From Phycisphaerales bacterium (lineage in GTDB: Bacteria; Planctomycetota; Phycisphaerae; Phycisphaerales; UBA1924): a DNA stretch of 40,658 nt. The stretch spans positions 1-40,658 of the forward strand of contig RECZ01000088.1 of NCBI GenBank assembly GCA_007693765.1. The letters run 5' to 3'. This document shows, in pieces, positions 7,714 through 38,791 of the stretch; the stretch's first letter is position 1, and each line of letters begins with the position of its first letter. The notes beneath the pieces are model-generated. The model did no database searches. It worked only from the letters and a program-made list of their open reading frames with translations, and was not told where the DNA came from. The position numbers and the translations under genes were made by a program.

Positions 7714-8604
7714 TTAAGACCCACGAATTTCCATCATCGCTGCGCAGAGCCGGGCCGCGACGCGGGCGTTGTCCTTCACCAGCGCGATGTTCGCGCGCAG
7801 GGTGGCGCCGCCGGATATCTCGTGCAGGGCCGCGAGGATGCTCGGTGTGGCGTCGCGTCCCCCCGCCCCGCCTTCCGTTTCGACGCGCGATTCGGCCTCG
7901 CGCAGCCAGCGCCGCCAATCGTCGGGGGCGATCTCGTCGGCTTCGGGGATGGGGTTGCACACCAGCACGCCGCGCCCGGTGCGCCGGAGTTCGTCGCGCA
8001 CGAAGCGCGCCATCTCGGGCATGTCGTCGAAGCGGGCGTCCACACGCGCACCGCCGTCGCGCAGGTAGAACGCGGGGAAGGCGTTCGTGCGCCACCCGAT
8101 CACTGGCGCGCCGATCGTCTCGAACGCCTCGCGCGTGGACGCGACGTCCAGGATCGCCTTCACCCCACTCGACACCACCGCCACCGGGAACCGCGTGAAG
8201 GCGAGGATGTCGGCGCTGACGTCCAGCGGCCCGCCCCGCATCTTGTGCACACCCCCCACCCCGCCCGTCGCGAAGACGCGCACGCCCGCCGCCGCGGCGA
8301 GCTCCATCGTCGCGCTGACCGTCGTCGCGCACGTGCCGCCGGCGCTGAGGAACACCCCGAGGTTGGATGAGTTCCCCTTCGCCACGCGCTCCATCGCCAG
8401 CATCGCGCCGAGTTCCTCGTCGTTCATCCCCACGACCGCCCCGCCCCGCAGCACGCCGACCGTGGCCGGGCGGGCGCCGGCGTCGCGGACGATCGCTTCG
8501 AGGTCGCGCGCCAGCGCCGGCGCGGCCTCGCGGGGCACGCCGTGGGCGAGGAGGGTGGTCTCCAGCGCGACGCAGTCTGGTCCGGCGCGGTTGGTGAGAT
8601 GCAC
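7714..8604 (-). CDS. psuG: Pseudouridine-5'-phosphate glycosidase
   Basis: A 296-residue enzyme that splits pseudouridine 5'-phosphate into uracil and ribose 5-phosphate, part of pseudouridine catabolism. The PsuG/IndA family signature is clear: VALETTLLAHG near the N-terminus (Glu15, matching the catalytic glutamate), TTVSATM, VFATGGVGGVH, then SADILAFT and SSGVKAILD with the Schiff-base lysine at 149. The start is taken as GTG at 8604, because GGAGA lies eight bases upstream and the conserved domain begins at residue 11. A longer frame would run into the divergent peptidase gene. No psuK-type kinase is adjacent, so the pseudouridine kinase must be elsewhere or the substrate imported as phosphate. 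Confidence 0.9.
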   Translation of the reverse strand: MHLTNRAGPDCVALETTLLAHGVPREAAPALARDLEAIVRDAGARPATVGVLRGGAVVGMNDEELGAMLAMERVAKGNSSNLGVFLSAGGTCATTVSATMELAAAAGVRVFATGGVGGVHKMRGGPLDVSADILAFTRFPVAVVSSGVKAILDVASTREAFETIGAPVIGWRTNAFPAFYLRDGGARVDARFDDMPEMARFVRDELRRTGRGVLVCNPIPEADEIAPDDWRRWLREAESRVETEGGAGGRDATPSILAALHEISGGATLRANIALVKDNARVAARLCAAMMEIRGS

Positions 8605-8734
8605 TCTGAACGTCTCCGTCAGTTCGGGGGGGTGCGGCCCGGCATGGTACCCCCGCCTCCTTGCCGCGCGGTTCGCGATGGGTGAGACTGCCCGCCCCTC
8701 CCACACGCGCCTCTCCCGCAGGAGCACGACCCGT
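8605..8734. other. Divergent promoter region psuG / M14 peptidase
   Basis: 130 bp separate the divergent starts. Apart from the two ribosome-binding sites (GGAGA for psuG, AGGAG for the peptidase), I see no distinct promoter boxes. Confidence 0.35.
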
Positions 8735-16600: not shown

Positions 16601-18244
16601 ATGCCCTCGCAGATCAACCCCACCAGCGAGATCCGGCTCGTGCCGCTGAGCGGCCCGGGGATCGCCACGATCGACGTCAGCCCCGACGCCCGCACGGTGA
16701 TGGGCCGGTCGTCAACGTGCACCACCGTCCTGCCCGACGAGACGATGTCCGTCTCGCGTGAGCACGCGGCGGTGTTCTGGAAAGCGGGCGAGTGGTACAT
16801 CACCGACGAGAACAGCCGGCACGGCACCTTTCTCAACGACGTCCGCCTCGACCCGCAAGCACCGGCGCCGCTGCGCGAGGAGGACCGCGTCCGCATCGGG
16901 CCGTGGGTCTTCGCGGTGCGCGGCGTGGGCCAGGCGCGGAGATCGCACCACACAACGCTCCTCGCCGACGCCAACTCCACCCGCATCGAGCGGATCCAGG
17001 CGACCAACGTCGCCGCGCTCGCGCAGCACCGGTTCGACCTGCTGATGGAGCTCGCGGCGGGCATCGCCTCGGCGGACTCGATGGAGCGGATGGCGAGCGC
17101 GGCCCTCGATGCGCTGGTGGAGGGCGCGGGCTTCCCGCGGGCCTCGATCCTCGTCGACGCCGGCAAGTCCGACACCGTGGGCGTGATCGCCTCGCGCAGC
17201 CGCGGCGACGGCGGGCTGCGCGACGGGGAGTTCAGTAGTTCGCTCATCCGCGAGGCGCGCCGGGGCGACCCCGTGCTGCTGCGCGGGAACGCGCCGATGG
17301 CCCAGGCGATGAGCGTCCTCGACCTGGGCATCGACGAAGCAATTTGCGCGCCCATCAGCGTGGGCTCCAACGTGGCGGCGTACCTCTACGTCGACACACG
17401 CGGGCGCGGCGAGCGGCTGCCACAGGACGCCCAGACGTTCGCGCAGGCCGTGGCGCGGATGTGCGGGTTGGCGATGGCGAACATCCAGCGCATCGAACTG
17501 CAGCGGCGCACCGAGCAGATGGTGAAGGACCTGGACGCCGCGCGCGAGGCGCAGCGGCTGCTCATCCCGCCCGAGTTCGGCGCCCACGGGGCGTTGCGCT
17601 ACGCGATGCGGATGCGCTCCGGCCGTTTCGTCGCCGGCGACCTCTTCGACCTCGTGCCCTTCGCCGACGGCCCGCTCGGGGTGATCCTCGGCGACGTCTC
17701 GGGCAAGGGCATCGGCGCCGCGATCCTGATGGCCGCGGCTCAGTCGCGCCTGCACGCCGCGATGCAGCGCGAGCGCGACCCCGCCCGCGCCGTGCAGGAG
17801 GTCAACACGCACGTGCTCTCGCGCTCGGCGGACAACTCGTTCATCACCCTCTGGGCGGGCGTGATCGACCCCGTCGCCCGCACCATCGCCTTCGTCGACG
17901 CCGGGCACGGCTGCTGCCTCTACAAGCCGCCGGGGGCCCCGCCGCAGCGCGTGCGCTGCGAGGGCAACCTCGTGCTGGGTGTGCGCGCCGACGAGGCGTA
18001 CAAGACCGAATCGATCGCCGTCGAGCCCGGCGGGCGGCTGATCCTCTTCAGCGACGGCTTCGTGGAGCAGCGCGGCGCCGGCGGCGGCGACTTCGGCTTC
18101 GAGGGCGTCATCGCGGCGCTGACCGAGAGCCAATCGCCCGGCGACGACATCGAGGCCGCGTTCGAGGCCATCATCGCGTTCGCGGGGACGGACTCGCTCT
18201 CCGACGACGCCACTATCGCCTCCATCGAGATCGGCGCGGCCTGA
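16601..18244 (+). CDS. FHA-GAF-SpoIIE (PP2C-type) serine phosphatase
   Basis: A 547-residue soluble signalling protein with three domains in order. The FHA domain (about 10-110) has Gly35-Arg-Ser, SREHA (52-56) and NSRHGTFLND, and binds phosphothreonine. A GAF domain follows (about 140-300). The SpoIIE/RsbU PP2C domain (about 325-545) has the metal-binding AGDLFD (345-350), GDVSGKGIGAA (364-374), DAGHG (433-437), FSDGFVEQR (483-491) and DD at 535-536. RsbU-like phosphatases dephosphorylate anti-anti-sigma factors, while the FHA domain implies input from a Ser/Thr kinase. No anti-sigma or STAS gene is adjacent. The start lies 52 bp from the divergent ABC exporter start; no strong ribosome-binding site precedes it. 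Confidence 0.92.
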   Translation: MPSQINPTSEIRLVPLSGPGIATIDVSPDARTVMGRSSTCTTVLPDETMSVSREHAAVFWKAGEWYITDENSRHGTFLNDVRLDPQAPAPLREEDRVRIGPWVFAVRGVGQARRSHHTTLLADANSTRIERIQATNVAALAQHRFDLLMELAAGIASADSMERMASAALDALVEGAGFPRASILVDAGKSDTVGVIASRSRGDGGLRDGEFSSSLIREARRGDPVLLRGNAPMAQAMSVLDLGIDEAICAPISVGSNVAAYLYVDTRGRGERLPQDAQTFAQAVARMCGLAMANIQRIELQRRTEQMVKDLDAAREAQRLLIPPEFGAHGALRYAMRMRSGRFVAGDLFDLVPFADGPLGVILGDVSGKGIGAAILMAAAQSRLHAAMQRERDPARAVQEVNTHVLSRSADNSFITLWAGVIDPVARTIAFVDAGHGCCLYKPPGAPPQRVRCEGNLVLGVRADEAYKTESIAVEPGGRLILFSDGFVEQRGAGGGDFGFEGVIAALTESQSPGDDIEAAFEAIIAFAGTDSLSDDATIASIEIGAA

Positions 18245-24803: not shown

Positions 24804-24895
<92 letters not shown>

Positions 24896-25245: not shown

Positions 25246-25284
25246 CTGATCACCTCTTGACAGGGGGGTGATCAGTGCTATGTT
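25246..25284 (+). promoter_or_regulatory. Promoter and operator of the flp/tad locus
   Basis: A consensus -35 TTGACA (25257-25262) is followed after 16 bases by TATGTT (25279-25284), a four-of-six match to the -10 box. The -35 lies in the 12-base centre of a perfect 9-bp inverted repeat, CTGATCACC (25246-25254) and GGTGATCAG (25267-25275). A dimeric regulator bound there would cover the -35 box and control the pilus genes. The transcript leader would be roughly 120 bases. Confidence 0.65.
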
Positions 25285-25412: not shown

Positions 25413-25763
25413 ATGCTGCAGCGTCTTCTTCGTAATCGCAAGGGCCAAGGCTTCGTCGAGTACGCCCTGCTCGTGGCCGGCGTCGCCCTCGTTGGCGCGA
25501 TCGGCGTCACCATCCTCGGCGACAAGACCAACGAGATGATCTCGTCCGTCGCCACCGTGCTCCCCGGCGCCAACCCGATCGTGAACAGCCCGATCTCCGC
25601 CGGCGCCATGATCGAGTTCGACGTCAACGCCGACGGCTCGCTGATCATCGATCTCGCGGCCATCACCGCCAACTCGGACGGCAACCAGCCCCGCCTGTCC
25701 GACAACCTCGGCATCGACACCGCCGACTTCACGGATCTCGTCATCACCGTCCACCCCTTCTGA
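25413..25763 (+). CDS. flp: Flp-type major pilin with extended C-terminus
   Basis: A 116-residue prepilin of the type IVc (Tad) pilus. After a short basic leader (MLQRLLRNRKG) the processing site G|QGFVEYALLVAGVALVGAIG has Glu at +5 and Tyr at +6, the Flp signature, followed by a hydrophobic helix. Flp pilins are usually 50-70 residues; here about 65 extra residues follow, with IEFDVNADGSLIIDLAAIT and FTDLVITV segments that recur in the next gene. A strong GGAGG is seven bases before the ATG. It is the first gene after the tad promoter and is followed by a hairpin, as expected for a highly expressed major subunit. Confidence 0.93.
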   Translation: MLQRLLRNRKGQGFVEYALLVAGVALVGAIGVTILGDKTNEMISSVATVLPGANPIVNSPISAGAMIEFDVNADGSLIIDLAAITANSDGNQPRLSDNLGIDTADFTDLVITVHPF

Positions 25764-25832
25764 TCGCCTTGGCGACAGAACGCAGCGGGCCTGATCGGAC
25801 GAACGACCGGGGCCGCAACCGACGAATTGCTC

Positions 25833-25870
25833 ACCCGGCGCGGGAACGCGCCGGGTGGGCATTTCCTGTT
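25833..25870 (+). terminator. Hairpin between the two pilin genes (partial terminator)
   Basis: ACCCGGCGC and GCGCCGGGT form a perfect 9-bp stem with a six-base loop at 25833-25856. It is followed by GGGCATTTCCTGTTT, a modest T-rich tail. It lies 70 bp after the first pilin stop. It probably stops or protects most transcripts, giving much more major pilin than assembly proteins. Confidence 0.65.
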
Positions 25871-25970
25871 TGACACGGCGCCGCGCCTCGTCGGCGCGAC
25901 GTATGCCGCAACGCGGCGTGCGGGCCGTGTCGGATCGCCGCAAGACCGGTGACGAGAGGACCTTTACGCG

Positions 25971-26297
25971 ATGCGTCGAATCCTCCGCGACCGCTCCGGC
26001 CAGAGCACCCTCGAGTACGCCATGGGCATCGTGGCATTGGCGCTCGTCGGCATGGCCGCGGCCTCGCTGCTGAGTCAGCGCAGCGCGAACGTGATCTCGA
26101 TCACCAGCAGCGTGCAGCCCGGCGCCCACCCCACCGACTATTCAACGCTCGTGCCCGCGCCGTTGGTGGAGATCACCGACGTCAGCGGACAGGTCGTCAT
26201 CGATCTCGAGCAGATCACGAACCGCACCGGCACCTCCCGACTCGGCACGAACTTCGGCGTGGACGACGATTTCACCTCACTCGTCATCATCCCGTAA
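25971..26297 (+). CDS. Second Flp-type pilin
   Basis: 108 residues. The basic leader MRRILRDRSG precedes the cleavage site G|QSTLEYAMGIVALALVGMAAA, again with Glu+5 and Tyr+6. The C-terminal part mirrors that of the first pilin: VQPGAHP, then an acidic beta-like stretch VVIDLEQIT and FTSLVIIP at the end. Leader and helix differ enough that this is an old duplication. It may be a minor or tip pilin, or an alternative major subunit. The long 5' gap contains a TTGACA at 25870-25875 without a good -10 partner. It is clearly part of the tad gene series. Confidence 0.9.
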   Translation: MRRILRDRSGQSTLEYAMGIVALALVGMAAASLLSQRSANVISITSSVQPGAHPTDYSTLVPAPLVEITDVSGQVVIDLEQITNRTGTSRLGTNFGVDDDFTSLVIIP

Positions 26298-26349: not shown

Positions 26350-26793
26350 ATGAGTCCGCACGCACTCGCAACGCACGCCGCACCCTGGGTACCGCCCGTC
26401 TTCGCGGCGGTGGCGAGCGTCTACGACCTGCGCACCCGGGAAATCCCCGACTGGATCCCCATCGCCCTGCTCGTCTGGGCGGCCGTCGCGCTGCTCGTTG
26501 GCGTGCACCACGCGGACTGGCTCTCGGCGCTGGGCGGCTTGGCCCTAGCGTTCGGCATCGGCGCGCTGCTCTTCTACATCGCCGACTTCGGCGGCGGCGA
26601 CGCCAAGCTGCTCGGCGCCGTCGGCGCGTGCTACGGGCTCGGTTCCACGTTGCCAATTTTGTTCTGGATCGCCATAATGGGGGGTGTTCTGGCGGTTGTT
26701 GCGCTTGCGCGCGGGAAGCGATCATTGGCGTACGCGCCGGCCATCGCGATGGGCACGCTGATCTGGGTCGTACTTCAGGAGATACAGGGCTAG
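26350..26793 (+). CDS. cpaA: Prepilin peptidase, A24 family (TadV/CpaA)
   Basis: A 147-residue inner-membrane aspartyl protease that removes the leader from Flp prepilins. It has four to six hydrophobic helices. The catalytic aspartates are Asp26 in YDLRTREIPDW and Asp84 in GGGDAKLLGA, the GxGD motif. It lacks the N-terminal methyltransferase domain of PilD, as is normal for TadV/CpaA. The gene lies 52 bp after the second pilin and two bases before tadE. Confidence 0.93.
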   Translation: MSPHALATHAAPWVPPVFAAVASVYDLRTREIPDWIPIALLVWAAVALLVGVHHADWLSALGGLALAFGIGALLFYIADFGGGDAKLLGAVGACYGLGSTLPILFWIAIMGGVLAVVALARGKRSLAYAPAIAMGTLIWVVLQEIQG

Positions 26794-26795
26794 CA

Positions 26796-27695
26796 ATGCG
26801 ATTGCACCGCTGTCACCACCGCGCCCGATCCGAGCGCCCGGCCGACCGCCGCGGCGGCGTGCTCATCGAGTTTGCGCTCATCACGCTCATCGGCTACATC
26901 TTCATCGCCGCGCTGCTCACGTTCGGCCAGTACTTCTACTCGGCGCAGGTCGTGCAGCAGGCGGCGGACATCGCGGCCCGCGAGCTCTCGCGCACCCCGC
27001 TCCCGGCAAACATCACGTTCGACGACCTCCTCGCCGACCCGACGAACGAGTTCAGCCAGCGCATCTACTCAGAAGACTTCCTCGCGATCGACGTCACCAC
27101 CTGGGCCAACAACCCCGGCGGCGTCACCCTGCTCGAGCACCTCGACACGCTGGGCATCCCCATCGTCAACAAGGCGCTCGTGCCCGTCATGTTCATCGAG
27201 AACGTCGGCGGCACAACCCTGCTCCGCTATCCGGGAGCGCTGATCGATCGCGGCGGAACGTTCAGCGTGGCCGTTCCGCAGGTCCTGAGCATCAACGGCG
27301 CCGAGACGATCCGCTGGACGCGCGTCCTCGAAGAGATCCGCGCCCCCGGCGAGCCCAGCGCCTTCCCGCTCACCTCGCCGCAGGGCGGGCTCGTCGCGCT
27401 CCGCGTGAATTACCCCTTCCAAGCCGGCGCCATGAGCGCACACAGACCCAACCCCGGCGGCCCCTTCGAGCCCACCATCGGATCGCCCATCGAGGCGGAC
27501 GACGCCAACGTCTCCGTCGTCGGCGGCGGGATCCCCGGCGGCGGCACGCCCGTCGACCCGACCGGCGGCGCCCCCGCGGGCACGTTCGCCGGCATCTTCG
27601 GCCTCGGCAAGCAGCAGGCCCGCGGCCTCGAACTCCGGCCGTACCGGCGCGTCGTCACCGCGCAGTCAATTTTCCGACGCGAAGTCTTCGAATAA
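26796..27695 (+). CDS. tadE: TadE-like pseudopilin
   Basis: 299 residues. The N-terminal RRGGVLIEFALITLIGYIFIAALLTFGQYFYSAQVVQQAADIAARE is the TadE-like domain: a processing-like Gly, Glu+5 (GVLIEF), a single membrane helix, and a Q/A-rich amphipathic helix. The remaining ~230 residues form an exported domain with a Gly/Pro-rich loop (GGGIPGGGTP) near the end. TadE proteins are minor pseudopilins needed for Tad pilus assembly. Usual TadE proteins are 130-200 residues, so this one is long. It follows cpaA with a two-base gap. Confidence 0.85.
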   Translation: MRLHRCHHRARSERPADRRGGVLIEFALITLIGYIFIAALLTFGQYFYSAQVVQQAADIAARELSRTPLPANITFDDLLADPTNEFSQRIYSEDFLAIDVTTWANNPGGVTLLEHLDTLGIPIVNKALVPVMFIENVGGTTLLRYPGALIDRGGTFSVAVPQVLSINGAETIRWTRVLEEIRAPGEPSAFPLTSPQGGLVALRVNYPFQAGAMSAHRPNPGGPFEPTIGSPIEADDANVSVVGGGIPGGGTPVDPTGGAPAGTFAGIFGLGKQQARGLELRPYRRVVTAQSIFRREVFE

Positions 27696-27797: not shown

Positions 27798-28787
27798 ATG
27801 CGAAACAATCGAACGTACCAGCGCTCCAGCGCACGCCCCGGGCGCACCGCCCTCACGGTGATCCTCATCATCCTCATCGTGATCCTCGGCGCCTTTGTGA
27901 CGCTCGTCGCCGTCGGCGAGGTCGCCGTCAACTGGGACGGCCTCCGCAACCGTCTCGGCCTCAATTCGAGTGAGACCAGGGCCGAGCCCGCCCGGGTCGA
28001 ACTGCGCGAGGGCCAGGCCTACGCCATCGTCACCCGCCGCCCCATTCAGGCGTACGAGGCGCTCACGATCGAGCACTTCCACGACCGCGAGGGGCGCCTC
28101 TTCCGCGTGGCCGTCACCCCCGACTCGTTCCCCTCGCCGCCCTTCAACGATGTGGTGTCCATGATCGGGCGCGTCTCCGCGACCGACATCCCCGCCGGGC
28201 GCGCCATCCACGACGGCCTGCTGATGCCCGCCGGCACCCGCCCCGGCGTCGTGGCCGCGGTGCCCCCCGGCAAGCGGGCCATGGTGCTCGACGCGTCGCT
28301 CATCCGCGGCGTGCACGGGCTCAACCGCGGCGACCGTGTGGACATCATCGCCACGATGTCGATCGATCTCGCCCGTCAATTCCGAGCCGCCACCGCCGGC
28401 GCACACGTCGCCAACCTCGGCGGCGACAGCGAGGTCAGCTCCTTCGACCGACAGGTCGTGATGCGCGTGCTTGTCGAGAACGGCCAGATCGTTCAGCCCG
28501 CCCGCCAGCGCGCAACGCAAGGCGCCCCCACCTCCAGCCGTCGCGGCCCCGAGGAGATCATCATCGCCGTCGATCCCAACGAGGTCACGCTGCTTAACGA
28601 GGCCATCGCGCTCGGCGCCGACATCATGTGCGTCGCCCGCTCAGGCCGCCCCGACGACATCGACACCACAGTGCCCACCACGTCGAGACTCGGCGGCGAG
28701 CACACCACCCTCAACGCCGTCGAGACCATCGTCGGCAACGACCGCCGCGTGATCGTCTTCCCCGGTTCCAACACCAACAACCGCTGA
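27798..28787 (+). CDS. cpaB: Flp pilus assembly protein CpaB/RcpC
   Basis: 329 residues. One membrane helix (about 18-42, TALTVILIILIVILGAFVTLVAVG) anchors the protein, with the rest periplasmic. An SAF domain covers about residues 70-150 (VTRRPIQAYEALTIEHF...IGRVSATDIPAGRAIHDGLL). The RcpC domain (about 155-290) includes GKRAMVLDASLIRGVHGLNRGD and EIIIAVDPNEVTLLNEAIALGADI. RcpC/CpaB gates or stabilises the secretin. It lies between tadE and the tadG-like gene. The ~100-bp gap before it shows no promoter, and AAGGCGAG precedes the start. Confidence 0.92.
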   Translation: MRNNRTYQRSSARPGRTALTVILIILIVILGAFVTLVAVGEVAVNWDGLRNRLGLNSSETRAEPARVELREGQAYAIVTRRPIQAYEALTIEHFHDREGRLFRVAVTPDSFPSPPFNDVVSMIGRVSATDIPAGRAIHDGLLMPAGTRPGVVAAVPPGKRAMVLDASLIRGVHGLNRGDRVDIIATMSIDLARQFRAATAGAHVANLGGDSEVSSFDRQVVMRVLVENGQIVQPARQRATQGAPTSSRRGPEEIIIAVDPNEVTLLNEAIALGADIMCVARSGRPDDIDTTVPTTSRLGGEHTTLNAVETIVGNDRRVIVFPGSNTNNR

Positions 28788-28849
28788 CCGCCGGCCGGCC
28801 TCGCCCCATCCCGCAGGTACCCGCCGACACTCGCACCAATCGCCCACGC

Positions 28850-30514
28850 ATGGCCACGAGACCCGACATCACTGCCTCGCGTCGCGGCGTCGAACGGCGC
28901 GGGTGGCGGCGTGGATCGACGTTCGTGCCTCTGGCGCTGATCGTCGTCACGTTCATGGCCATCGCCGCGGTGGCCATCGATCTCGGCATGTCGTCGCTCA
29001 CGCGCAACCTCCTGCAGACCGCCGTCGAGCACAGCGCGCTCGAGGGCGCACGATGGAAGGATGCGCTGCCCGATCAGGAACGACGCATCCTCGCCAGCCA
29101 AGCCGTCGCGCTCGTCTTCGACGACGATCTCAACATCGATGACCTCGACGAGCCCCACGCCCTCGGCGCGGGGCCGCTCTTCCGTGTCACCGGGGGGACC
29201 GGGGACCTCGACGCCCTCGGCCTGATCGAGCTCGGCGACCCCAGTCTTCCACGCGGCGGCAACGTCTACCGCGAGCGCGAAGCCTTCGCCCCCGGCGTCA
29301 ACATCTGGCTGGCGCTGAACGAGGCGAACCTGCCGCACGGCGACATGCTCTCGGGCGTGTACGACCCCGCCGCGAGCAACCTCGACGGCCGTTTCATGGG
29401 CGGCGCGTGGTTGCCCTACGACAGAGAAGACCTCACGCCCGACGCCGACGGCTCGGCCTTCCTCGTCCGGATGCGCCGCACCAACAACTTCCAGAACCTC
29501 GACCGCCTCCCCGACATCAGCACGTCCGGCCCAGCCATCCCTTACCTCTTCGGGCGCGGCTCGATGCTGCCCGGCGCCGACCCCGGCGCCACCTACTCCC
29601 CCCGCCACCACGGCATGACGGTGCGCGCCACGGCCATCGCGGACGCCCGGCCCGCCAAGACAATCGGCGCTCCCGGATACACCGACCCGCTGCTCGCCGG
29701 CGCTCTCATCCCCGGCGCGGCCCCGTTCGCGCTAGCGCTCGATTACTGGAACACGCTCGTCGTGCACATTCCCCCGGCGTTCCCGCCCGTGCTCACGGTC
29801 GATCTGGCGACGGGCGAGGTCGAAGACCTCACCGGCCCGGTGGGCGTGCTGACACGCGTAGCCACCCTCAACGCCGCCATCGACAACAGCCAGACCTCCA
29901 TCACCGTCTCCACCAACGCCGGCTTCCCCACCGACGCGACCCCCTTCCGGGTGCGGGTCGAGGGTGAGATCCTCACGGTTACCGCCGTCGCCGGCACAAC
30001 GTGGACGGTCGTTCGCGGCGCCGAGGACACACCCGCCGCGCCCCATGCCCAGGACACCGCCGTGGCGCTGCTGGCGTCGATGACGATCGGCCGACCGCTG
30101 AGCGTGGTGCGGAGCGCCCCCGTGGGCCTGTCGCCCGTGCAGGGCGCAACACGCAACGTGCTCGTCCCGCTCTACGCCACCGTGAACGTGGGCGGCTCGG
30201 ACATCGACCTCATCGTCGGGTTCGGCCTCGCCGAGATCCAGCCCGGCGTGCCGAACCCCGACCCGCTGGACCCGGCGCTCGCGTTCGAGCTGCGCAAGGC
30301 CGCGGCGACGGTGCTGCCCCGCAACACGGGGGCGACGCTCGCCGGGGCGTGGTTTTCCGAGGTTGAAGATGTCCTGGGGCCGCTCGATCCGGCCGATATT
30401 GAAGAACTCCTCAACGGCGACGGAACGCCGTTGAATCCTGGTCTGCTGGGCTGGCACGCGCAGGTCGATCAGTCGGCGCTGGCGCCGGCGCTGGTCCGCG
30501 CGTACGGCCCCTGA
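28850..30514 (+). CDS. tadG: TadG-like pseudopilin with large exported domain
   Basis: 554 residues. RRGSTFVPLALIVVTFMAIAAVAIDLGMSSLTRNLLQTAVEHSALEGA is the TadG/TadE-like N-terminus: one membrane helix followed by an amphipathic helix. The exported part lacks the usual von Willebrand A domain with a MIDAS motif. Residues ~345-407 (ITVSTNAGFP...VRVEGEILTVTAV...WTVVRGAEDT..AAPH) resemble a short beta-structured module known from phage and virion proteins and from large surface proteins. TadG is needed for pilus assembly and anchoring. The ATG at 28850 is weakly preceded by a purine run. It is co-directional with cpaB and tadZ. Confidence 0.8.
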   Translation: MATRPDITASRRGVERRGWRRGSTFVPLALIVVTFMAIAAVAIDLGMSSLTRNLLQTAVEHSALEGARWKDALPDQERRILASQAVALVFDDDLNIDDLDEPHALGAGPLFRVTGGTGDLDALGLIELGDPSLPRGGNVYREREAFAPGVNIWLALNEANLPHGDMLSGVYDPAASNLDGRFMGGAWLPYDREDLTPDADGSAFLVRMRRTNNFQNLDRLPDISTSGPAIPYLFGRGSMLPGADPGATYSPRHHGMTVRATAIADARPAKTIGAPGYTDPLLAGALIPGAAPFALALDYWNTLVVHIPPAFPPVLTVDLATGEVEDLTGPVGVLTRVATLNAAIDNSQTSITVSTNAGFPTDATPFRVRVEGEILTVTAVAGTTWTVVRGAEDTPAAPHAQDTAVALLASMTIGRPLSVVRSAPVGLSPVQGATRNVLVPLYATVNVGGSDIDLIVGFGLAEIQPGVPNPDPLDPALAFELRKAAATVLPRNTGATLAGAWFSEVEDVLGPLDPADIEELLNGDGTPLNPGLLGWHAQVDQSALAPALVRAYGP

Positions 30515-30557: not shown

Positions 30558-31793
30558 GTGTCGAAAACAACCTCCATACTCGTCGTCGGCCCCGATCGAA
30601 CCCTCCCCCGCGAGATCGACTCCGCGCTCTCCTCGCTTGAGAGCGTGCGGATGGTCACGCACTACACGCCCGACTACCGGCAGGGCATCGAGAGCGCGCG
30701 GAGCCGTCGCCCCGACATCGCCATCGTCGAGATGGGCACGGACCACCGCTCTCTGAAGATGTTCGTCGAGGAAGTGCGTGTCGGCTCTCCCGAGACGTCG
30801 ATCATCGCGGCGTACCACGCCCAGTCGCTCACCGGCGGCTCCGGCGAGAGCGACACCATCATCAAGGCGATCCGGATGGGCGTGCAGGACTTCCTACGCC
30901 GGCCCGTCTCCAGCTCCGAGCTCGAGCAGTTCCTCGAGCGGCAGCTCCATCGCCCGCAGTCCGGCGCGCAGCTCGGGCGCATCTGCACGTTCTTCGCCAA
31001 CAAGGGCGGCGTGGGCAAGTCCACCCTGTCGGTCAACGTCGCGACCCTTCTGGCCACACGCCGGCCAGGGCGCGTGCTTCTGGTGGACGCCTCGATCCAG
31101 ATGGGCGTGTGCAACACCATGCTCAACGCCCTGCACCCCAAGACGTCGCTCATCGACGCCGTGCGCGAGCGGGCCCGTCTCGACGAGACGCTCATCCGCG
31201 AGCTGGCCTACGAGCACGACAGCGGGCTGCACCTGCTCGCCGCGCCCAACAGCGCGGTCGAAGCGACAGAGATCGACGACGAGGTCATCGCCCGCATCCT
31301 CACGCTGGCGCGGCGCACGTACGACTACGTGATCGTCGACACCTTCCCCATGCTCGACAGCGTGATGATGGCCATCCTCGACCTCACCGACCGGGCCTAT
31401 CTCGTCACCGAGAGCGTGGTGCCCACGCTCCGCGGCGCCGCCAGCCTGCTCGAGACGCTCGATGAGATCGGCCTGCCCGAAGACCGCCGGCGCATCATCC
31501 TCAACCGCTACTCAAAGTTCGCGGGCAACCTGCCGGTGCGCGACGTCGCCGAGAAGCTCGGGCAGGAGATCGCCCACGTCGTGCCCTACCAGAAGAAGCT
31601 GCTCATCGCCGCCAATCAGGGCGTGCCCTTCGTCATCGGCGCCGGGCGCTCGGGCGACTTCACCCGCGCCGTGGCCAAGATCGTCGACGAGATCGACTCC
31701 GACTGGTCGCCCCGCTTTGCGCAGAGCAGCGTGCTCAACCGCTCCGAATCGTCTGAGAACACGCCCGAGCGCGGCAACGAGGTGCGTGCGTGA
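30558..31793 (+). CDS. tadZ: Pilus localisation ATPase TadZ/CpaE
   Basis: 411 residues with a GTG start. The N-terminal ~130 residues are an atypical receiver domain; the usual phospho-acceptor aspartate is replaced at IVEMG (Glu58). The ParA/MinD-like ATPase has the deviant Walker A FANKGGVGKST (residues 146-156), followed by VLLVDASIQMG. YDYVIVDTFPMLDSV corresponds to the Walker B region. TadZ/CpaE localises the Tad machinery at a pole or site on the membrane. It overlaps tadA by the four bases GTGA, so translation is coupled. Confidence 0.93.
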   Translation: MSKTTSILVVGPDRTLPREIDSALSSLESVRMVTHYTPDYRQGIESARSRRPDIAIVEMGTDHRSLKMFVEEVRVGSPETSIIAAYHAQSLTGGSGESDTIIKAIRMGVQDFLRRPVSSSELEQFLERQLHRPQSGAQLGRICTFFANKGGVGKSTLSVNVATLLATRRPGRVLLVDASIQMGVCNTMLNALHPKTSLIDAVRERARLDETLIRELAYEHDSGLHLLAAPNSAVEATEIDDEVIARILTLARRTYDYVIVDTFPMLDSVMMAILDLTDRAYLVTESVVPTLRGAASLLETLDEIGLPEDRRRIILNRYSKFAGNLPVRDVAEKLGQEIAHVVPYQKKLLIAANQGVPFVIGAGRSGDFTRAVAKIVDEIDSDWSPRFAQSSVLNRSESSENTPERGNEVRA

Positions 31794-33232
31794 CGGACAA
31801 CAACGCGCCCAACCAGGAAGGTGTTTCGCGCGACGCCCTCTCGCGGACGCACATGTCCGTGCCCGCGGCTCGCACCAAGCTCCGCGTGCGCCCCAGCGCC
31901 AACGCCTTCGAACGCGTGCGCGGCGAATCGCCCACCCCGCGAACGGGAACCGCCGGCTACATGACGGTCAAGAGCGACCTGCACGAGCGCCTCCTCAACG
32001 ACGTCGAGGCCAACAATCTGCTCGACGCCAGCGAAGAGGTGCTCACAGACTTCGTCAAGAGCTTCGTCCAGCGCATCCTGGAAAACGAGGACCTCCCGCT
32101 CAACAGCGTGGAGCGTAAACGGCTCGCCGACGACCTGATGCAAGAGACGCTCGGCGTCGGCCCGCTCGCCGCCTTGATGGCCGACCCCGCCGTGACGGAC
32201 ATCCTTGTCAACGGCCCCAGCGAGGTCTACGTCGAGCGGTACGGCCGGCTCGAGCCCACCGAGGTCCGCTTCCGCGACAACGACCACCTCGTGCGCATCA
32301 TCCAGCGCATCGCGGCCAGCGTGGGCCGACGGATCGACGAATCCTCCCCCATGGTCGACGCCCGACTCGTTGACGGCAGCCGCGTGAACGCCACGCTGCC
32401 GCCCGTCTCCATCGACGGCCCCACGCTCTCGATCCGGCGCTTCGGGCATCACCGGCTGCGCCGCGACGACCTGCTGCGGCTGAACATGTACTCCCCGTCG
32501 ATGGTGACGTTCCTCGAGAGCGCTGTGCGGGCGCGGTGCAACATCGTGATCTCCGGCGGCACGGGCGCGGGCAAGTCAACGCTGCTCGGCGCCATCGCCG
32601 AGTCGATCCCCGGGTCGGACCGCGTCATCACGATCGAAGACGCCGCCGAGCTCGTGCTCACGCAGGAGCACGTCGTCCGCCTCGAGACCCGCCCCACGAA
32701 CATCGAGGGCGTCGGGCGCATCAGCGTGCGCGACCTGCTGGTCAACGCGCTGCACATGCGGCCCGATCGCATCATCGTCGGCGAGGTGCGCGGCCCCGAG
32801 GCGCTCGATATGCTCCAGGCCATGAACACCGGCCACGACGGCAGCCTGACCACCATCCACGCCAACAGCCCGCGCGACGCCATATCGCGCCTCGAGACCA
32901 TGGTCCTCACCGCCGGCACCGAACTGCCCTCCCGCGCCGTGCGCGAGCAGATCGTCTCCGCGGTCGACCTCGTGGTGAACGTTCGCCGGTACGAAGACGG
33001 CGTCCGACGCGTCGAGAGCATCACCGAGATCACGGGCATCGAGGGCCTCACGCCGCAGACGCAGGAGATCTTCCGCTTCCAGCGTCGCGGCCGGCACGGC
33101 CGGATGATCGTGGGCGACTTCATCCCGACCGGCATCGTGCCGCGTGTCATCGAAGAGATGCAGGACAGAGACGTCTACGTTCCCCTCAGTCTGTTCCAGC
33201 ACACCGGCGCCGGCGCCAACGAGGAGGAATAA
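31790..33232 (+). CDS. tadA: Secretion ATPase TadA/CpaF
   Basis: A 480-residue hexameric ATPase of the type II/IV secretion superfamily, which drives polymerisation of Flp. The N-terminal domain (~60-200) includes PLAALMADPAVTDILVNGPSEVYVER, a CpaF hallmark. Walker A is GGTGAGKST at residues 256-264. The Asp-box region is VITIEDAAEL, Walker B is RPDRIIVGEVRG and the His-box is GHDGSLTTIHAN. A GTG start overlaps the tadZ stop by four bases, and tadB follows with no gap. An N-terminal stretch of about 55 residues is low-complexity and probably disordered. Confidence 0.95.
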   Translation: MTDNNAPNQEGVSRDALSRTHMSVPAARTKLRVRPSANAFERVRGESPTPRTGTAGYMTVKSDLHERLLNDVEANNLLDASEEVLTDFVKSFVQRILENEDLPLNSVERKRLADDLMQETLGVGPLAALMADPAVTDILVNGPSEVYVERYGRLEPTEVRFRDNDHLVRIIQRIAASVGRRIDESSPMVDARLVDGSRVNATLPPVSIDGPTLSIRRFGHHRLRRDDLLRLNMYSPSMVTFLESAVRARCNIVISGGTGAGKSTLLGAIAESIPGSDRVITIEDAAELVLTQEHVVRLETRPTNIEGVGRISVRDLLVNALHMRPDRIIVGEVRGPEALDMLQAMNTGHDGSLTTIHANSPRDAISRLETMVLTAGTELPSRAVREQIVSAVDLVVNVRRYEDGVRRVESITEITGIEGLTPQTQEIFRFQRRGRHGRMIVGDFIPTGIVPRVIEEMQDRDVYVPLSLFQHTGAGANEEE

Positions 33233-34105
33233 GTGCAGATCGGCATCATCACACTCGTCATCGTCGTCGCGCTGCTGGCGCCGGCGTTGTACTTCTTCCG
33301 CTCGGCGCAGGTGCAGCGACGCTCGCGCGAGCGCCTGGAGGAAGCGCTGCAGTCGCCACCACGCGAGGGCGAGCCCGCGCCGCCCGCGGCGTCGCGCATC
33401 CCCCCCGTGCTGCCGCGCTACCGGGCCGTCCCGTGGCTGATCGCGGCGTTCGTCTTCCTGTTCTGCCTCATCGGCTTCGGCCTGAACCTGCTCTTCTCGG
33501 TGGTCTTCGCGGCCATCGCGTTGCTGCTCACCTCTCAGCTCGAACACATCTATCACGAGCGTCGCATCCTGCGGTTCGAGATGCAGCTCGCCGACGCGAT
33601 CGACCTGCTCGTCTCCTCGCTGAACGCCGGCGCCGGCGTCACCCGGGCGCTCGAGTTCGCCGCGGAGGAATCGGGCAGCCCGCTCAAGCAGCAACTCGAG
33701 CACATCACCGCACGAATCCGCTACGGCGACGATCCGCAGTCGGTCTTCCGCGCGTTCATGCGTCGTGTGCCGCTCGAGAACGTGCGCCTCTTCTCCACGG
33801 CGCTCTCGGTGCACTGGGAGGTCGGCGGCAGCCTCGGGCCAACGCTGGCGATGATCGGGCGCTCCGTGCGCGACCGCATCGAGATCACTCGTCGCATCCG
33901 CACGATGACGGCGCAGACGCGCATCTCGACGATCGCCGTCATCATCGCCACCTATTTCATCGCGCTGATCATGTGGCGCAACGCCCCGGACCGCTTCGAG
34001 GCGTTCCTCTCGACCCCCGTCGGGCAGGCGCTCGTCGCCGGCGCCATCTTCCTCCAGGCCGTCGGCATCGCCTGGTCCGCCGCACTCAGCAGGCCGAGGT
34101 ACTAA
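33233..34105 (+). CDS. tadB: Tad platform protein TadB
   Basis: 290 residues with a GTG start immediately after the tadA stop; GAGGAGG in the tadA tail serves as ribosome-binding site. A helix at the N-terminus and a pair around residues 65-100 precede the type II secretion F domain (FEMQLADAIDLLVSSLNAGAGVTRALEFAAEE), which is followed by two C-terminal helices. TadB and TadC form the inner-membrane platform that couples TadA to pilin. Confidence 0.93.
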   Translation: MQIGIITLVIVVALLAPALYFFRSAQVQRRSRERLEEALQSPPREGEPAPPAASRIPPVLPRYRAVPWLIAAFVFLFCLIGFGLNLLFSVVFAAIALLLTSQLEHIYHERRILRFEMQLADAIDLLVSSLNAGAGVTRALEFAAEESGSPLKQQLEHITARIRYGDDPQSVFRAFMRRVPLENVRLFSTALSVHWEVGGSLGPTLAMIGRSVRDRIEITRRIRTMTAQTRISTIAVIIATYFIALIMWRNAPDRFEAFLSTPVGQALVAGAIFLQAVGIAWSAALSRPRY

Positions 34106-34108
34106 GCC

Positions 34109-35044
34109 ATGTCCATGACCGCGATCATCGTGCTGCTGGTGTGGGTCGCCATCGCCGTGGCGCTCTTCTTCGTCTTCCGCCGCCTTGCCTCGGGCCAGCA
34201 CGCCCGGCAGCGCCTCTTCGCGTCCCAGAGCGCCCCCGTCTCCGACCCGCCCAAGGCCCGCCAGCCCGGCTCGACCGGCGGCTCGCTCACCCGCTGGCTC
34301 TACCTCGCGGGGTACCGCGATCCAACGGCGCCGCTGGCGTTCATTCTCATCACGATCCTGCTCGCGGCCCTCGGGCTCGGACTGGCTTTCGTGCTCGTGC
34401 AGTCGGGTCTGATCGAGCGCGGCTCGTACGCGCTGGGCGCTTTCCCCGGCGGCGTTCTCGAGATCTTCATCCCGGTGCTCATCATCGCGCCGTATCTGGT
34501 GCTGCTGCTCGTGGCGCTGCTGCCCACGGTGGTCGTCCGTGCCCGTCGGCGCAAGCGCGTCACCAAGATCGAGCAGGACCTGCCCATCACCCTCGAACTG
34601 CTCGCCACGCTCACCGAGGCCGGCCTCGGCTTCGACGCCGCGCTCGATCGGCTCATCCGCTCGCAACCCGCCGACCGCCCGCTCACCAGCGAGTTCCGCA
34701 CCTTCCAGGCCGAGACACTCTCCGGGCGCACCCGAGTAGTCTGCTTCCGGCGCATGGCGCGGCGGATCGACATCCCCTCGTTCAACGTCTTCGTCTCGGC
34801 GATCGTACAGGCCGAGCAGTCCGGCGCCGGCATCGCCAACACACTGCGCCATCAGGCCGACGACCTCCGCAACATCCGGCGCGAGCGGGCCCTCGAGTTC
34901 TCGATGTCCCTGCCCGTCAAGCGGCTGGTGCCGATGGTCATCTGCTTCCTGCCCGGCATCTTCGTCGCGGCCCTCGGCCCCCCCTTCGCCGAGCTCATCC
35001 GACAGGTCAACACCCAAGTTATCGGAGGCGCCGGTACGCCATGA
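34109..35044 (+). CDS. tadC: Tad platform protein TadC
   Basis: 311 residues. N-terminal helix (1-25), helices near 75-95 and 105-135, then a type II secretion F domain (KIEQDLPITLELLATLTEAGLGFDAALDRLI) and a C-terminal helix (VPMVICFLPGIFVAALGPPFAEL). It starts three bases after tadB, and its TGA stop overlaps the next gene's ATG by four bases. It works with TadB as the membrane platform. Confidence 0.92.
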   Translation: MSMTAIIVLLVWVAIAVALFFVFRRLASGQHARQRLFASQSAPVSDPPKARQPGSTGGSLTRWLYLAGYRDPTAPLAFILITILLAALGLGLAFVLVQSGLIERGSYALGAFPGGVLEIFIPVLIIAPYLVLLLVALLPTVVVRARRRKRVTKIEQDLPITLELLATLTEAGLGFDAALDRLIRSQPADRPLTSEFRTFQAETLSGRTRVVCFRRMARRIDIPSFNVFVSAIVQAEQSGAGIANTLRHQADDLRNIRRERALEFSMSLPVKRLVPMVICFLPGIFVAALGPPFAELIRQVNTQVIGGAGTP

Positions 35045-35472
35045 GCCGCCCGATCTGGAGCCTCCGGATCCTGGGAACCGGCGACACCGTCGCGAGCCGC
35101 GTGACGATCGCCGACGGCTTCCTTTCTCGCTTGCGCGGCCTGCAGTTCCGCCGCCCCCTCGGGCCCGGTGAGGGCCTCCTCCTAGTCCCCTGCTCCTCGA
35201 TTCACACCATGTTCGTCCGCGGGCCGATCGACGCGGTGTTCCTCGACCGTTCCGGAGCCGTGCTCGGCGTCGAGCACCACATCTCACCTTGGCGTCCGCT
35301 CGTGAAGGCGCCGCGCAAAACTTACGCGACACTCGAACTGCCCGCCGGCGGCGGGCGTGTCCACAAGGGCGACAGACTGCAACTCGACGGGAGGCCCCCG
35401 AATGGCGTTTCTCCCCCAAAATCAGTACGATTCATCACCGGACGCTCACTCGCCGCCGTCCCGACCATTTGA
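35041..35472 (+). CDS. DUF192 family protein inside the tad operon
   Basis: 143 residues. The segment GFLSRLRGLQFRRPLGPGEGLLLVPCSSIHTMFVRGPIDAVFLDRSGAVL is the DUF192 signature, in particular SxHTxFMxxPIDxxFLD. No clear signal peptide is visible, whereas many DUF192 proteins are exported. The start ATG overlaps the tadC stop (ATGA), and the secretin gene begins seven bases after its stop. It is therefore locked into the tad operon. The function of DUF192 is not established; a role in pilus assembly or substrate handling is an inference from position. Confidence 0.88.
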   Translation: MSRPIWSLRILGTGDTVASRVTIADGFLSRLRGLQFRRPLGPGEGLLLVPCSSIHTMFVRGPIDAVFLDRSGAVLGVEHHISPWRPLVKAPRKTYATLELPAGGGRVHKGDRLQLDGRPPNGVSPPKSVRFITGRSLAAVPTI

Positions 35473-35479
35473 GGGTGAT

Positions 35480-37408
35480 ATGCACGCAAATCTCCTGACA
35501 CGCATCCGTACATCGCTCCGCGCACGCGCAGCGCGCACGCCGGGCGCATCCTCGTTCACCGCCCGCCGCTTGTGGCTGATGGCGCCGACGGGGCTGTTCC
35601 TCCTGCTGCTGCCGATCATGCCGCTGCAGGGGCAGGACCGCACCGCTACGACGCAACCCGGGCACAACGCGGCGGCGCAACGCGCTGCCCCGACGAACGC
35701 CAACGGCGACCCGTTCCGACTGCAGGGCACGCGCCTCGGGATGCTCGACAGCCCCGACGGCACGCTCGGCGCCACGCCGCGGCCGACGGACGAGACCGCG
35801 CGCCGCTTCGGGCGTTTCGTCGATCGCTTCGTCGACGCGGACAACACGCTCGATGTCGTGACCGGGCGCCCGCGCATCCTGGTGTTCAAGCGTCCGCCGC
35901 TGCGCATTCAGATCCCCGATGAGAACGTCGCTCGGTACGACATCCTCACCGACCGCGAACTCTCCATCACCGGCCTGAACGTCGGGCAGACGCTCCTCAA
36001 CATCTGGTTCGCCGACCCCGACCACCCCAGCGGGCAGGAGATCCTCAGCTACCTCGTCCGCGTGGTGCCCGACCCCGAAGCACGCGAGCGCCTCGAGCGC
36101 GTGTACTCAGCGCTCGAAGATGAGATCAACAACGCCTTCCCCACCAGTCTCGTCAACCTCTCGCTCGTGGGCGACACGCTGATGGTCGAGGGTCAGGCCC
36201 GCGACATCGCCGAGGCCGACCGCATCATGCGCGTCATCGAGGCCAACGCCCCGCGCATCGAGGCGCGCATCCCCGTCGACGCGTGGGACGACTCGCCCGA
36301 CTTCGGCGCCATGACCACCGACGCCGGCCTCTCCTCGACCTCCGGCATGCTCACCCCCGGCCTCAGCCGCTTCTCCAGCACGCCGCTCGAGTCCGACGGC
36401 TACCGCGCCGCCATGGGCCGCAGCGACGCCCGCATGGGCGCCCGCGGCCGCACCGCCGCCCGCGCGAGTTCGCTCAACATCGTCAACCTCCTGAAGATCC
36501 CCGGCGAGCCCCAGGTCTCGCTCAAGGTCACCGTCGCCGAGGTCAACCGCGCCGGCGCCCGCTCCATCGGACTCAACTTCTCCTACACCAACAACTCCGG
36601 CATCACGGTCATCGAAAGCCTCACCGGCGGCATCGCGACCGGCGGCCTGGCCAACCTTCCCGCCTTGCTCGACGGCGGCCAGCTCTCGCTCGCCATCAAC
36701 GCCCTCCGCGGCATGAGCCTCGCCAAGTCGCTCGCCGAGCCCAACCTCGTCGCCCTCAACGGCCACACCGCCTCCTTCCTCGCCGGCGGCCAGTTCCCCG
36801 TGCCCGTCGTCACCGGCGCCACCGCGACCGGCCTGCAGGGCGTCGAGTACGTCCCCTTCGGCGTCGAGCTGCGTTTCACCCCTTACATCCTCGATCGCGA
36901 CCGCATCCGCCTCGTGGTCACCGCCGAGGTCAGCACCCGCTCGGTGCCCAACTCGACCATCATCAACGGGCAATCCGTCCCCGGTCGCGACACCCGCACC
37001 TTCCACACCGTGGTCGAGCTGCGCTCGGGCCAGACGCTGGCCGTCGCCGGCCTGATCCAGTCCAGCATGGGTTCGGACGCCGACCGCATCCCCGGCGCGG
37101 GCGATCTGCCGCTCATCGGCTGGCTCTTCGGCTTCAACCGCACCACCGCCAGTGAGCAGGAGCTCGTCGTGCTCATCACGCCCGAGCTCGTCCACCCGCT
37201 CGATAAGAACGAGGTGCCCCACTTCCTCCCCGGCGACGACATCTTCGAGCCCGACGACCTCGAGTTCTACCTGCTCGGCCGCCTCGAGAGCCGCCACAGC
37301 GAAGATTCCCGCAACGTCGTCCTCACCGACTACGAGCGCCAGGGCCGCGCCCGCGCCTTCGAGCGGAAGTTCATCCTCGGCCCCTCCGGCCACTCCGACC
37401 AGCGCTGA
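35480..37408 (+). CDS. cpaC: Tad secretin RcpA/CpaC
   Basis: 642 residues from the ATG at 35480, which has GAGGG six bases upstream; an alternative ATG at 35402, also with GGGAGG, would give 668 residues and overlap the DUF192 gene. A basic leader and a hydrophobic segment (LWLMAPTGLFLLLLPIMPLQGQ) target the protein for export. The N-terminal pilus secretin domain (ILVFKRPPLRIQIPDE...LNVGQTLLNIWFAD) is followed by a BON-like strand-helix (VNLSLVGDTLMVEGQARDI...). The secretin domain runs from about residue 335 to 570, with PNLVALNGHTASFLAGGQFP, VPFGVELRFTPYIL, LRSGQTLAVAGLI and ELVVLITPELVHPL. It forms the outer-membrane pore for Flp export. Confidence 0.93.
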   Translation: MHANLLTRIRTSLRARAARTPGASSFTARRLWLMAPTGLFLLLLPIMPLQGQDRTATTQPGHNAAAQRAAPTNANGDPFRLQGTRLGMLDSPDGTLGATPRPTDETARRFGRFVDRFVDADNTLDVVTGRPRILVFKRPPLRIQIPDENVARYDILTDRELSITGLNVGQTLLNIWFADPDHPSGQEILSYLVRVVPDPEARERLERVYSALEDEINNAFPTSLVNLSLVGDTLMVEGQARDIAEADRIMRVIEANAPRIEARIPVDAWDDSPDFGAMTTDAGLSSTSGMLTPGLSRFSSTPLESDGYRAAMGRSDARMGARGRTAARASSLNIVNLLKIPGEPQVSLKVTVAEVNRAGARSIGLNFSYTNNSGITVIESLTGGIATGGLANLPALLDGGQLSLAINALRGMSLAKSLAEPNLVALNGHTASFLAGGQFPVPVVTGATATGLQGVEYVPFGVELRFTPYILDRDRIRLVVTAEVSTRSVPNSTIINGQSVPGRDTRTFHTVVELRSGQTLAVAGLIQSSMGSDADRIPGAGDLPLIGWLFGFNRTTASEQELVVLITPELVHPLDKNEVPHFLPGDDIFEPDDLEFYLLGRLESRHSEDSRNVVLTDYERQGRARAFERKFILGPSGHSDQR

Positions 37409-37991: not shown

Positions 37992-38086
37992 TCAACCGCG
38001 TCGCCGACTCGGACCGCGGCCGAACGTTCCCGATGCCCGCCCCGCGTCACACTCGCCCGCTTCCCGCCCTAAGGTGGGAGAGAGCC

Positions 38087-38791
38087 ATGTCCATCACCCG
38101 CAACTCCGCCATCTGTGCACTCGCCGCAAGCCTCGCGCTCATCGCGGGCTGCGCGGGCGGTCAGGGCTCGCAGCGCTCTGGCGTTCAGCCCCCCCCGGGA
38201 TCGCAGGACCTGCCGCCAAACCAAGCCGCGGAAGTGTGCTTCGCCACCGCGCGTGAGCTCGAAGAAAACGGCTTCGACGCCCAGGCCATCGTCCAGTACG
38301 AGCGAGCCCGCCAATTCAACCCCCGCATCGCGGGCGTCTCGCGTCGTTTGGCCGTGCTCTACGACCGCACGGGCGACACCGCCCGCGCCAACGCTGAGTA
38401 CCAGAAGGCGCTCAACAACACCCCCAACGACCCCGCGTTGCTCAACGACTACGGCTACTTCCACTACGTCCGAGGCAACTGGAAAGAAGCCGAGGTGCAG
38501 TTCCGCCGCGCGCTGGCAATCGACAACTCCAACGCCCGCGCCTGGAACAACCTTGGGCTTACCCTCGCGCAGTTGGGCAACTACGACGCCGCCTACGAAG
38601 CCTCCGCGAAGGCCGTCGGCCCGGCGGAGGCCCGGGCCAACGTGGCGATGATCATGGTCAGCCACGGCCGATTCGACGAAGCGACACGATCGCTCCAGCA
38701 GGCGCTGGCGATCAACCCCGATCTGCCCCGCGCCAGGACTGTGCTCGAGTGGCTCCGCGACCAGCCGCGCGACGGTCAGCTTCCCCCCTGA
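38087..38791 (+). CDS. tadD: TadD-like TPR lipoprotein
   Basis: 234 residues. The lipobox IAGC places the lipidated cysteine at residue 22. The mature part is a series of tetratricopeptide repeats: IVQYERARQFNPRIAGVSRRLAVLYDRTGDTARANAEYQKALNNTPNDPALLNDYGYFHYVRGNWKEAE..., ending with LQQALAINPDLPRA. TadD/TadD-like pilotins support secretin assembly. GGTGGGAG lies just before the ATG. It is the last gene of the tad run and converges on the secreted dockerin-like protein gene. Confidence 0.88.
   Translation: MSITRNSAICALAASLALIAGCAGGQGSQRSGVQPPPGSQDLPPNQAAEVCFATARELEENGFDAQAIVQYERARQFNPRIAGVSRRLAVLYDRTGDTARANAEYQKALNNTPNDPALLNDYGYFHYVRGNWKEAEVQFRRALAIDNSNARAWNNLGLTLAQLGNYDAAYEASAKAVGPAEARANVAMIMVSHGRFDEATRSLQQALAINPDLPRARTVLEWLRDQPRDGQLPP

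Follow-up and report, generated by a model that had tools for sequence, protein, structure and literature searches.

Among type IV pili, those of the Tad type are described as having subunits without the outer beta domain, which elsewhere serves in contacts for assembly, in adhesion and in the binding of phages (PMC11067988). The mature PilA of Caulobacter crescentus is a 45-residue helix with its N-terminus facing inwards and its C-terminus facing outwards, without a beta domain (PMC11067988), and known Flps are fully helical proteins of 50-80 aa (PMC12075869). A lengthened member has been described in the Tad-like Kil system of Myxococcus xanthus, i.e. the Flp-type major pilin KilP of 97 aa, whose charged C-terminal region is surface-exposed in the authors' model, its alpha-2 region being modelled as unfolded in the polymer with the charged residues exposed (PMC12075869). 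In the same system, KilK and KilO are Flp adapter pilins transcribed at a low level (PMC12075869). The usual tip components of Tad pili are TadE and TadG (PMC12075869).

The window analysed here, i.e. a stretch of 40,658 nucleotides from a Phycisphaerales bacterium (contig RECZ01000088.1, assembly GCA_007693765.1), carries two extended Flp-type prepilin genes in tandem on the + strand, as are the promoter, the hairpin and the Tad genes given below. Pilin 1 (25413..25763, 116 aa) and pilin 2 (25971..26297, 108 aa) both have a basic leader, the cleavage motif G|xxxxEY and then a hydrophobic helix (RNRKG|QGFVEY and DRSG|QSTLEY, respectively). Cleavage is predicted at G11|Q12 in pilin 1 and at G10|Q11 in pilin 2, leaving mature proteins of 105 and 98 residues; the helix of pilin 1 spans residues ~7-47, and the extensions span residues ~50-116 and ~49-108. 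RBS-like sequences precede both genes, with GGAGG upstream of the pilin 1 ATG. The first-pass annotation, which had described two ORFs with this start and a C-terminal extra part of about 60 residues, is thereby confirmed.

With Flp/Fap pilins (PF04964; C. crescentus PilA, PDB 8U2B/8U1K) the two proteins share the cleavage motif, the hydrophobic helix and a tad operon with its own A24 prepilin peptidase. In contrast, at 116 and 108 aa they lie outside the 50-80 aa precursor range, the mature proteins have ~100 residues, and for the last ~60 of these no match was found among solved structures or family models. Both also remained below the PF04964 (Flp_Fap) cut-off, with 19.1 bits for pilin 1 against a gathering score of 32.2 and no match for pilin 2. 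Judged from their sequences, they are therefore Tad pilins by motif and operon, yet not canonical Flps by length and Pfam cut-off.

Over the full length, pilin 1 and pilin 2 are 38 % identical (BLASTP, E = 1e-21). The extensions were also compared separately from the helix, in order to exclude a similarity due to the helix alone. From the PGAxP turn onwards they scored 85 against each other, compared to a shuffle mean of 24.6 and a maximum of 59, so that none of 20,000 shuffles reached the observed value (Gumbel P ~4e-8); without the PGAxP turn the score was still 66 against a shuffle maximum of 58 (P ~7e-6). These scores rule out an absence of similarity between the extensions, and the resemblance that had been proposed for them is borne out. 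A turn resembling a DxNxDG calcium loop in pilin 1 (FDVNADGS) has other residues in relatives, and no claim is made for it.

The pilin pair opens a complete Tad operon and is followed by a TadV-type A24 prepilin peptidase (26350..26793; PF01478, E = 2e-16), a TadE-like minor pilin (ORF bounds 26628..27695, with the true start inside the ORF; PF07811, E = 1e-5), CpaB/RcpC (27798..28787; PF16976, E = 2e-6) and a TadG-like protein (ORF bounds 28628..30514, with the likely start near 28850; PF13400, E = 3e-4). Further downstream are TadZ/CpaE with a receiver-like N-terminus and in conserved position (30558..31793; AAA_31, E = 2e-19), the TadA/CpaF motor ATPase, a call to which the trees also contribute (31790..33232; PF00437, E = 6e-61), TadB (33233..34105; PF00482), TadC (34109..35044; PF00482), the RcpA/CpaC secretin (35357..37408; PF00263, E = 3e-38) and a TadD-like TPR protein, likewise in conserved position (38033..38791). 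CpaB and TadG fell just under the curated Pfam cut-offs; both are supported by a gene order conserved across loci. One locus thus holds TadA, TadB, TadC, TadZ, RcpA, RcpC/CpaB, TadE/G and the peptidase.

Upstream of the pilins, the window carries a tRNA-Ser (24804-24895) and an RNA ligase/phosphoesterase-like gene, and farther from the Tad operon an FHA domain fused to a SpoIIE-type phosphatase (16601-18244; PF00498 and PF07228) and a large ORF encoding a zinc carboxypeptidase domain (M14; 8087-11701). Bin contamination was considered and rejected: a neighbouring upstream DUF3553 gene is conserved across the window's family (24 of 25 sampled same-family genomes, including the window's own), and the contig is therefore not a binning error.

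A second carrier was found within the same family, i.e. genome G073 (locus L019; record JAJTHN010000039.1, 'Phycisphaeraceae bacterium isolate CoA8_V101'), whose family label Phycisphaeraceae lies within Planctomycetota. It harbours both extended pilins, again as a tandem pair and with the same peptidase, TadE, CpaB and TadG behind them. Unlike in the window, the stretch directly upstream of this pair (L019:2934-5659) contains a histidine kinase-like ORF together with a sigma-54-type response regulator, which may both regulate the Tad operon. Extended pilins were absent from the other 398 genomes of the order that were sampled, and the other 246 genomes sampled from the class gave at most a short match to the N-terminal part, i.e. 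two of 248 sampled class genomes carry the extended pilin, both as a tandem pair. Among Tad loci of order-mates with a recognisable pilin, the mature pilin has ~40-62 residues, mostly 40-55. A single-protein search of 61 relatives returned the window's own pair only, apart from a spurious match to a frame of 664 aa, and the weak family and order matches (L006-L014, L025-L033) proved on reading not to be extended pilins. In one order-mate Tad locus (L085:3901-4331, genome G376), two short Flp pilins that are almost the same stand side by side in tandem, apparently an independent recent duplication.

A profile built from the four extended pilins of the window and G073 was then searched against the sampled Planctomycetota genomes. 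At E <= 1e-12 it matched in 29 of 372 genomes of the phylum, most matches reaching well into or across the extension; beyond the window and G073, these comprise 27 further genomes (E <= 3e-13), which belong to 13 families that lie outside the class of the window. The extension had been proposed as a domain peculiar to this lineage, which is not borne out by these 27 genomes, and we dropped the idea of a lineage-only domain: the extension is a trait of one Tad subtype across many planctomycete families. The suggested profile search thus recovered the same extended pilin phylum-wide, almost always beside Tad genes, and true homologues retain the extension rather than lacking it. Plasmids gave no match to the extended pilins, and when the whole collection was scanned early on with a pattern of the window pair, the only matches elsewhere were ordinary short Flps.

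Alignment of 26 extracted family members gave the shared consensus GAALVEYxLLxAGVALV...FGHKTNDLI..VAAxLPGAHxDDNGPIVSGKLIET..D..GxIxLD..........N-x-G.....LVVE, with P51, G52, N98, G100 and L109 conserved within the extension. Both window pilins match the extension part of it (PGAHxDDNGPIxSGKLIETxxDxxGxIxLD..N-x-G..LVVE) in an extension-only profile. When this profile was built from distant homologues only, pilin 1 reached 44.8 bits and pilin 2 32.2 bits, compared to maxima of 12.9 and 11.4 in 5,000 shuffles each. Of the G073 pair, the pilin 2 extension is a clear match (22.3 bits), while that of pilin 1, which has an insertion, is marginal (11.7 bits, with 1 of 5,000 shuffles as high). The extension is acidic in all members (net charge -3 to -12) and varies in length from 50 to 79 residues, the C-terminal third being variable; a few members have degenerate ends, such as L132, which lacks most of this third. 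It is mostly under purifying selection, with an omega of 0.03-0.48 in most close pairs, comparable to the helix. PF04964 was matched by 19 and the archaeal Class_IIIsignal model by eight of the 26 members (E <= 0.01 each), and the extension itself lies outside any Pfam or NCBIfam model. Given that no earlier description of such pilins in planctomycetes was found in the open-access literature, the extension apparently belongs to a protein family not previously described.

In almost all loci examined, the order A24-CpaB-TadG-TadZ-TadA-TadB-TadC is found beside the pilin, with two arrangements of the secretin, i.e. either downstream of TadC (the window, L120, L122, L134 and L135) or as secretin-like matches upstream of the pilin (L124, L126, L127, L129, L131 and L137). 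Three genomes of family f32 also have two extended pilins each (L121:10253-10591, L123:8150-8482 and L134:5286-5645), one paralogue with a linker cysteine in LPCAHDDD (in one of them also CNDLCATV) and the other with LPGAH, which suggests that the cysteine paralogue may be a disulphide-linked or specialised pilin.

Phylogenetic analysis of TadA placed 18 extended-pilin loci in one clade (support 100/100), outside of which lie the order-mates and the short-pilin loci of other planctomycete families. The window TadA is 72 % identical to that of G073 and 57-69 % to those of extended-pilin loci from other families, compared to at most ~52 % for short-pilin loci. Families f32 and f73 fall together with the window and G073, albeit not strongly (93/71); both families share with the window a secretin downstream of TadC, many other extended-pilin loci have the upstream matches, and secretin placement roughly tracks the TadA tree. 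Since only two of 248 class genomes carry the system and are nested among other families, our data suggest a lateral acquisition in the common ancestor of the window and G073, although differential loss may account for the same distribution. In the pilin tree, the two pilin 1 proteins (97/93), the two pilin 2 proteins (93/91) and all four together (84/90) form groups, pilin 2 being on longer branches than pilin 1 and thus faster-evolving. By this tree the pilin duplication predates the split of the window and G073 genera, and the two genes are paralogues, as had been supposed.

Regarding the structure of the extension, AlphaFold2 was run with four sequences only and gave a pLDDT of 57.3 and 58.8 and a pTM of 0.30 for the two pilin models. 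A helix was modelled at 7-47 in pilin 1 and at 13-45 in pilin 2, followed by short strands and two short helices, and a Foldseek search with these models found no fold match. No fold is claimed for the extension, since this confidence is too weak. As to the globular or beta domain that had been suggested, the models place strands in the extension, but at a pLDDT of 57-59; a folded beta domain would be plausible. The alternating hydrophobic pattern and the D/N-xx-G turn conserved in the alignment read as a probable beta-hairpin (KLIET..D/N-xx-G-x-I-x-LD) with LVVE as third strand, which together may form a mini beta sheet.

Alternatively, the extension may be a flexible acidic tail which does not fold and coats the pilus with charge, like the alpha-2 region of KilP; the C-terminal third varies in length, and L132 lacks most of it. 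The low pLDDT, the acidity of every member, the length range and the unfolded state of the KilP region (PMC12075869) all point in this direction. However, conserved alternating hydrophobic segments (KLIET, IxLD and LVVE) and the conserved N98, G100 and L109 are unusual for a disordered tail. Moreover, while the likeness to KilP lies in a lengthened Flp with a charged C-terminal region, the planctomycete extension, compared by description, exceeds that of KilP in length, follows a consensus of its own and reads as beta, whereas the tail of KilP is predicted to be helical. We consider a flexible tail rather unlikely, yet the best of the rival explanations.

Whether folded or not, the extension would probably be displayed. 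Following predicted cleavage after G11/G10 by the A24 peptidase at 26350, the pilin helix would pack into the shaft of the Tad pilus like that of Caulobacter PilA, and the extension would coat the filament surface, by analogy with the beta domain of other type IV pilins. An outside position is suggested because the C-terminus of the Caulobacter pilin points outwards and the family profile matches that structure over the helix only; among solved structures generally it matches the helix only, with positions 15-51 aligned to 8U2B. As all members are acidic, the pilus would thereby acquire a coat of negative charge. Type IVa/b and archaeal type IV pilins likewise have a helix in the shaft and a C-terminal domain outside; in contrast to these, the machinery here is Tad (TadA, the TadB/TadC split, TadZ and RcpA) and the head of a type IVa pilin is much larger than the extension, and no similarity to such a head and no match to a type IVa pilin model was found in the libraries searched.

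A candidate sigma-70-type promoter with an extended -10 (TTGACA-16-TATGTT; 25257..25284, 10 of 12 matches, a consensus match only) is located 129 nt 5' of pilin 1, where the region shows two such sites versus 0.4 expected, and a comparable promoter-like site is present 5' of pilin 1 in L019. After pilin 1 there is a strong intrinsic-terminator-like hairpin (25828..25861) with a 15 bp stem and a T-rich TTTCCTGTTT tail, which none of 100 dinucleotide shuffles matched in strength, and the same holds for G073 pilin 1. No such hairpin follows pilin 2 in the window or in G073 (67 and 53 of 100 shuffles as strong, respectively). Strong hairpins, without a shuffle control, also occur behind many single pilin genes elsewhere in the phylum, and no riboswitch was found in the pilin leader with Rfam. 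The terminator-like hairpin is no proof of differential expression; given its position between the genes, the likelier assignment is that pilin 1 is probably the major subunit and pilin 2 probably a minor pilin or an adapter. Having a promoter of its own and a terminator behind it, pilin 1 would be the abundant shaft subunit, while pilin 2 would be made by read-through along with the machinery genes as a low-copy pilin, most likely, by analogy, an adapter between the shaft and a TadE/TadG tip. KilK and KilO, as a second low-expressed Flp beside the major pilin, are the closest functional analogy for pilin 2; nevertheless, KilO has 59 aa and both are all-helical, and the likeness considered here is one of function and of the general Flp pattern.

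It is unlikely, by comparison, that the two pilins contribute in similar amounts to a single mixed shaft with neither as adapter: the same domain plan of G|xxxxEY and extension, the 38 % identity and the retention of both pilins in two genera would fit such a filament, but the strong terminator between the genes in both genera and the longer branches of pilin 2 argue against it. Even less probable is a literal division into tip and shaft as proposed in the first-pass annotation, with pilin 2 itself as tip adhesin. Low expected expression would suit a tip protein, but TadE- and TadG-like proteins are already encoded in the operon, which as usual tip components (PMC12075869) are better candidates for the actual tip, and the head of pilin 2 is no larger than that of pilin 1. 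Finally, that these are ordinary Tad pilins with a neutral, functionless C-terminal run-on is very improbable: most Tad pilins do work without an extension (PMC12075869, PMC11067988), but this one is conserved across 13+ families and under purifying selection comparable to the helix.

The reading we favour, and regard as reasonably probable, is therefore that the pair are Flp-type prepilins of a Tad subtype in which the helix forms the shaft and the acidic tail is displayed, with pilin 1 abundant and pilin 2 low-copy. The hallmark of this subtype would be a conserved PGAxP(D)DN turn that leads from the pilin helix into an acidic module of ~55-60 residues. It is tempting to speculate further, though we hold this only tentatively, that a small folded beta domain sheathes distinct planctomycete Tad pili, each subunit being a 'lollipop' pilin, and that the operon spread sporadically between classes.

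While the Tad pilin motif, the helix and the operon are known, the ~60-residue conserved tail on Tad pilins appears to be new. Conserved and selected across a phylum, such an extension would represent a new surface module in this class of pili, or else another way of coating them and, if true, a folded beta domain on the shaft subunit would break the rule of Tad pilins as bare helices. The extended pilins constitute a defined family of proteins that has both a consensus and an operon type, and they bear on surface attachment in planctomycetes.
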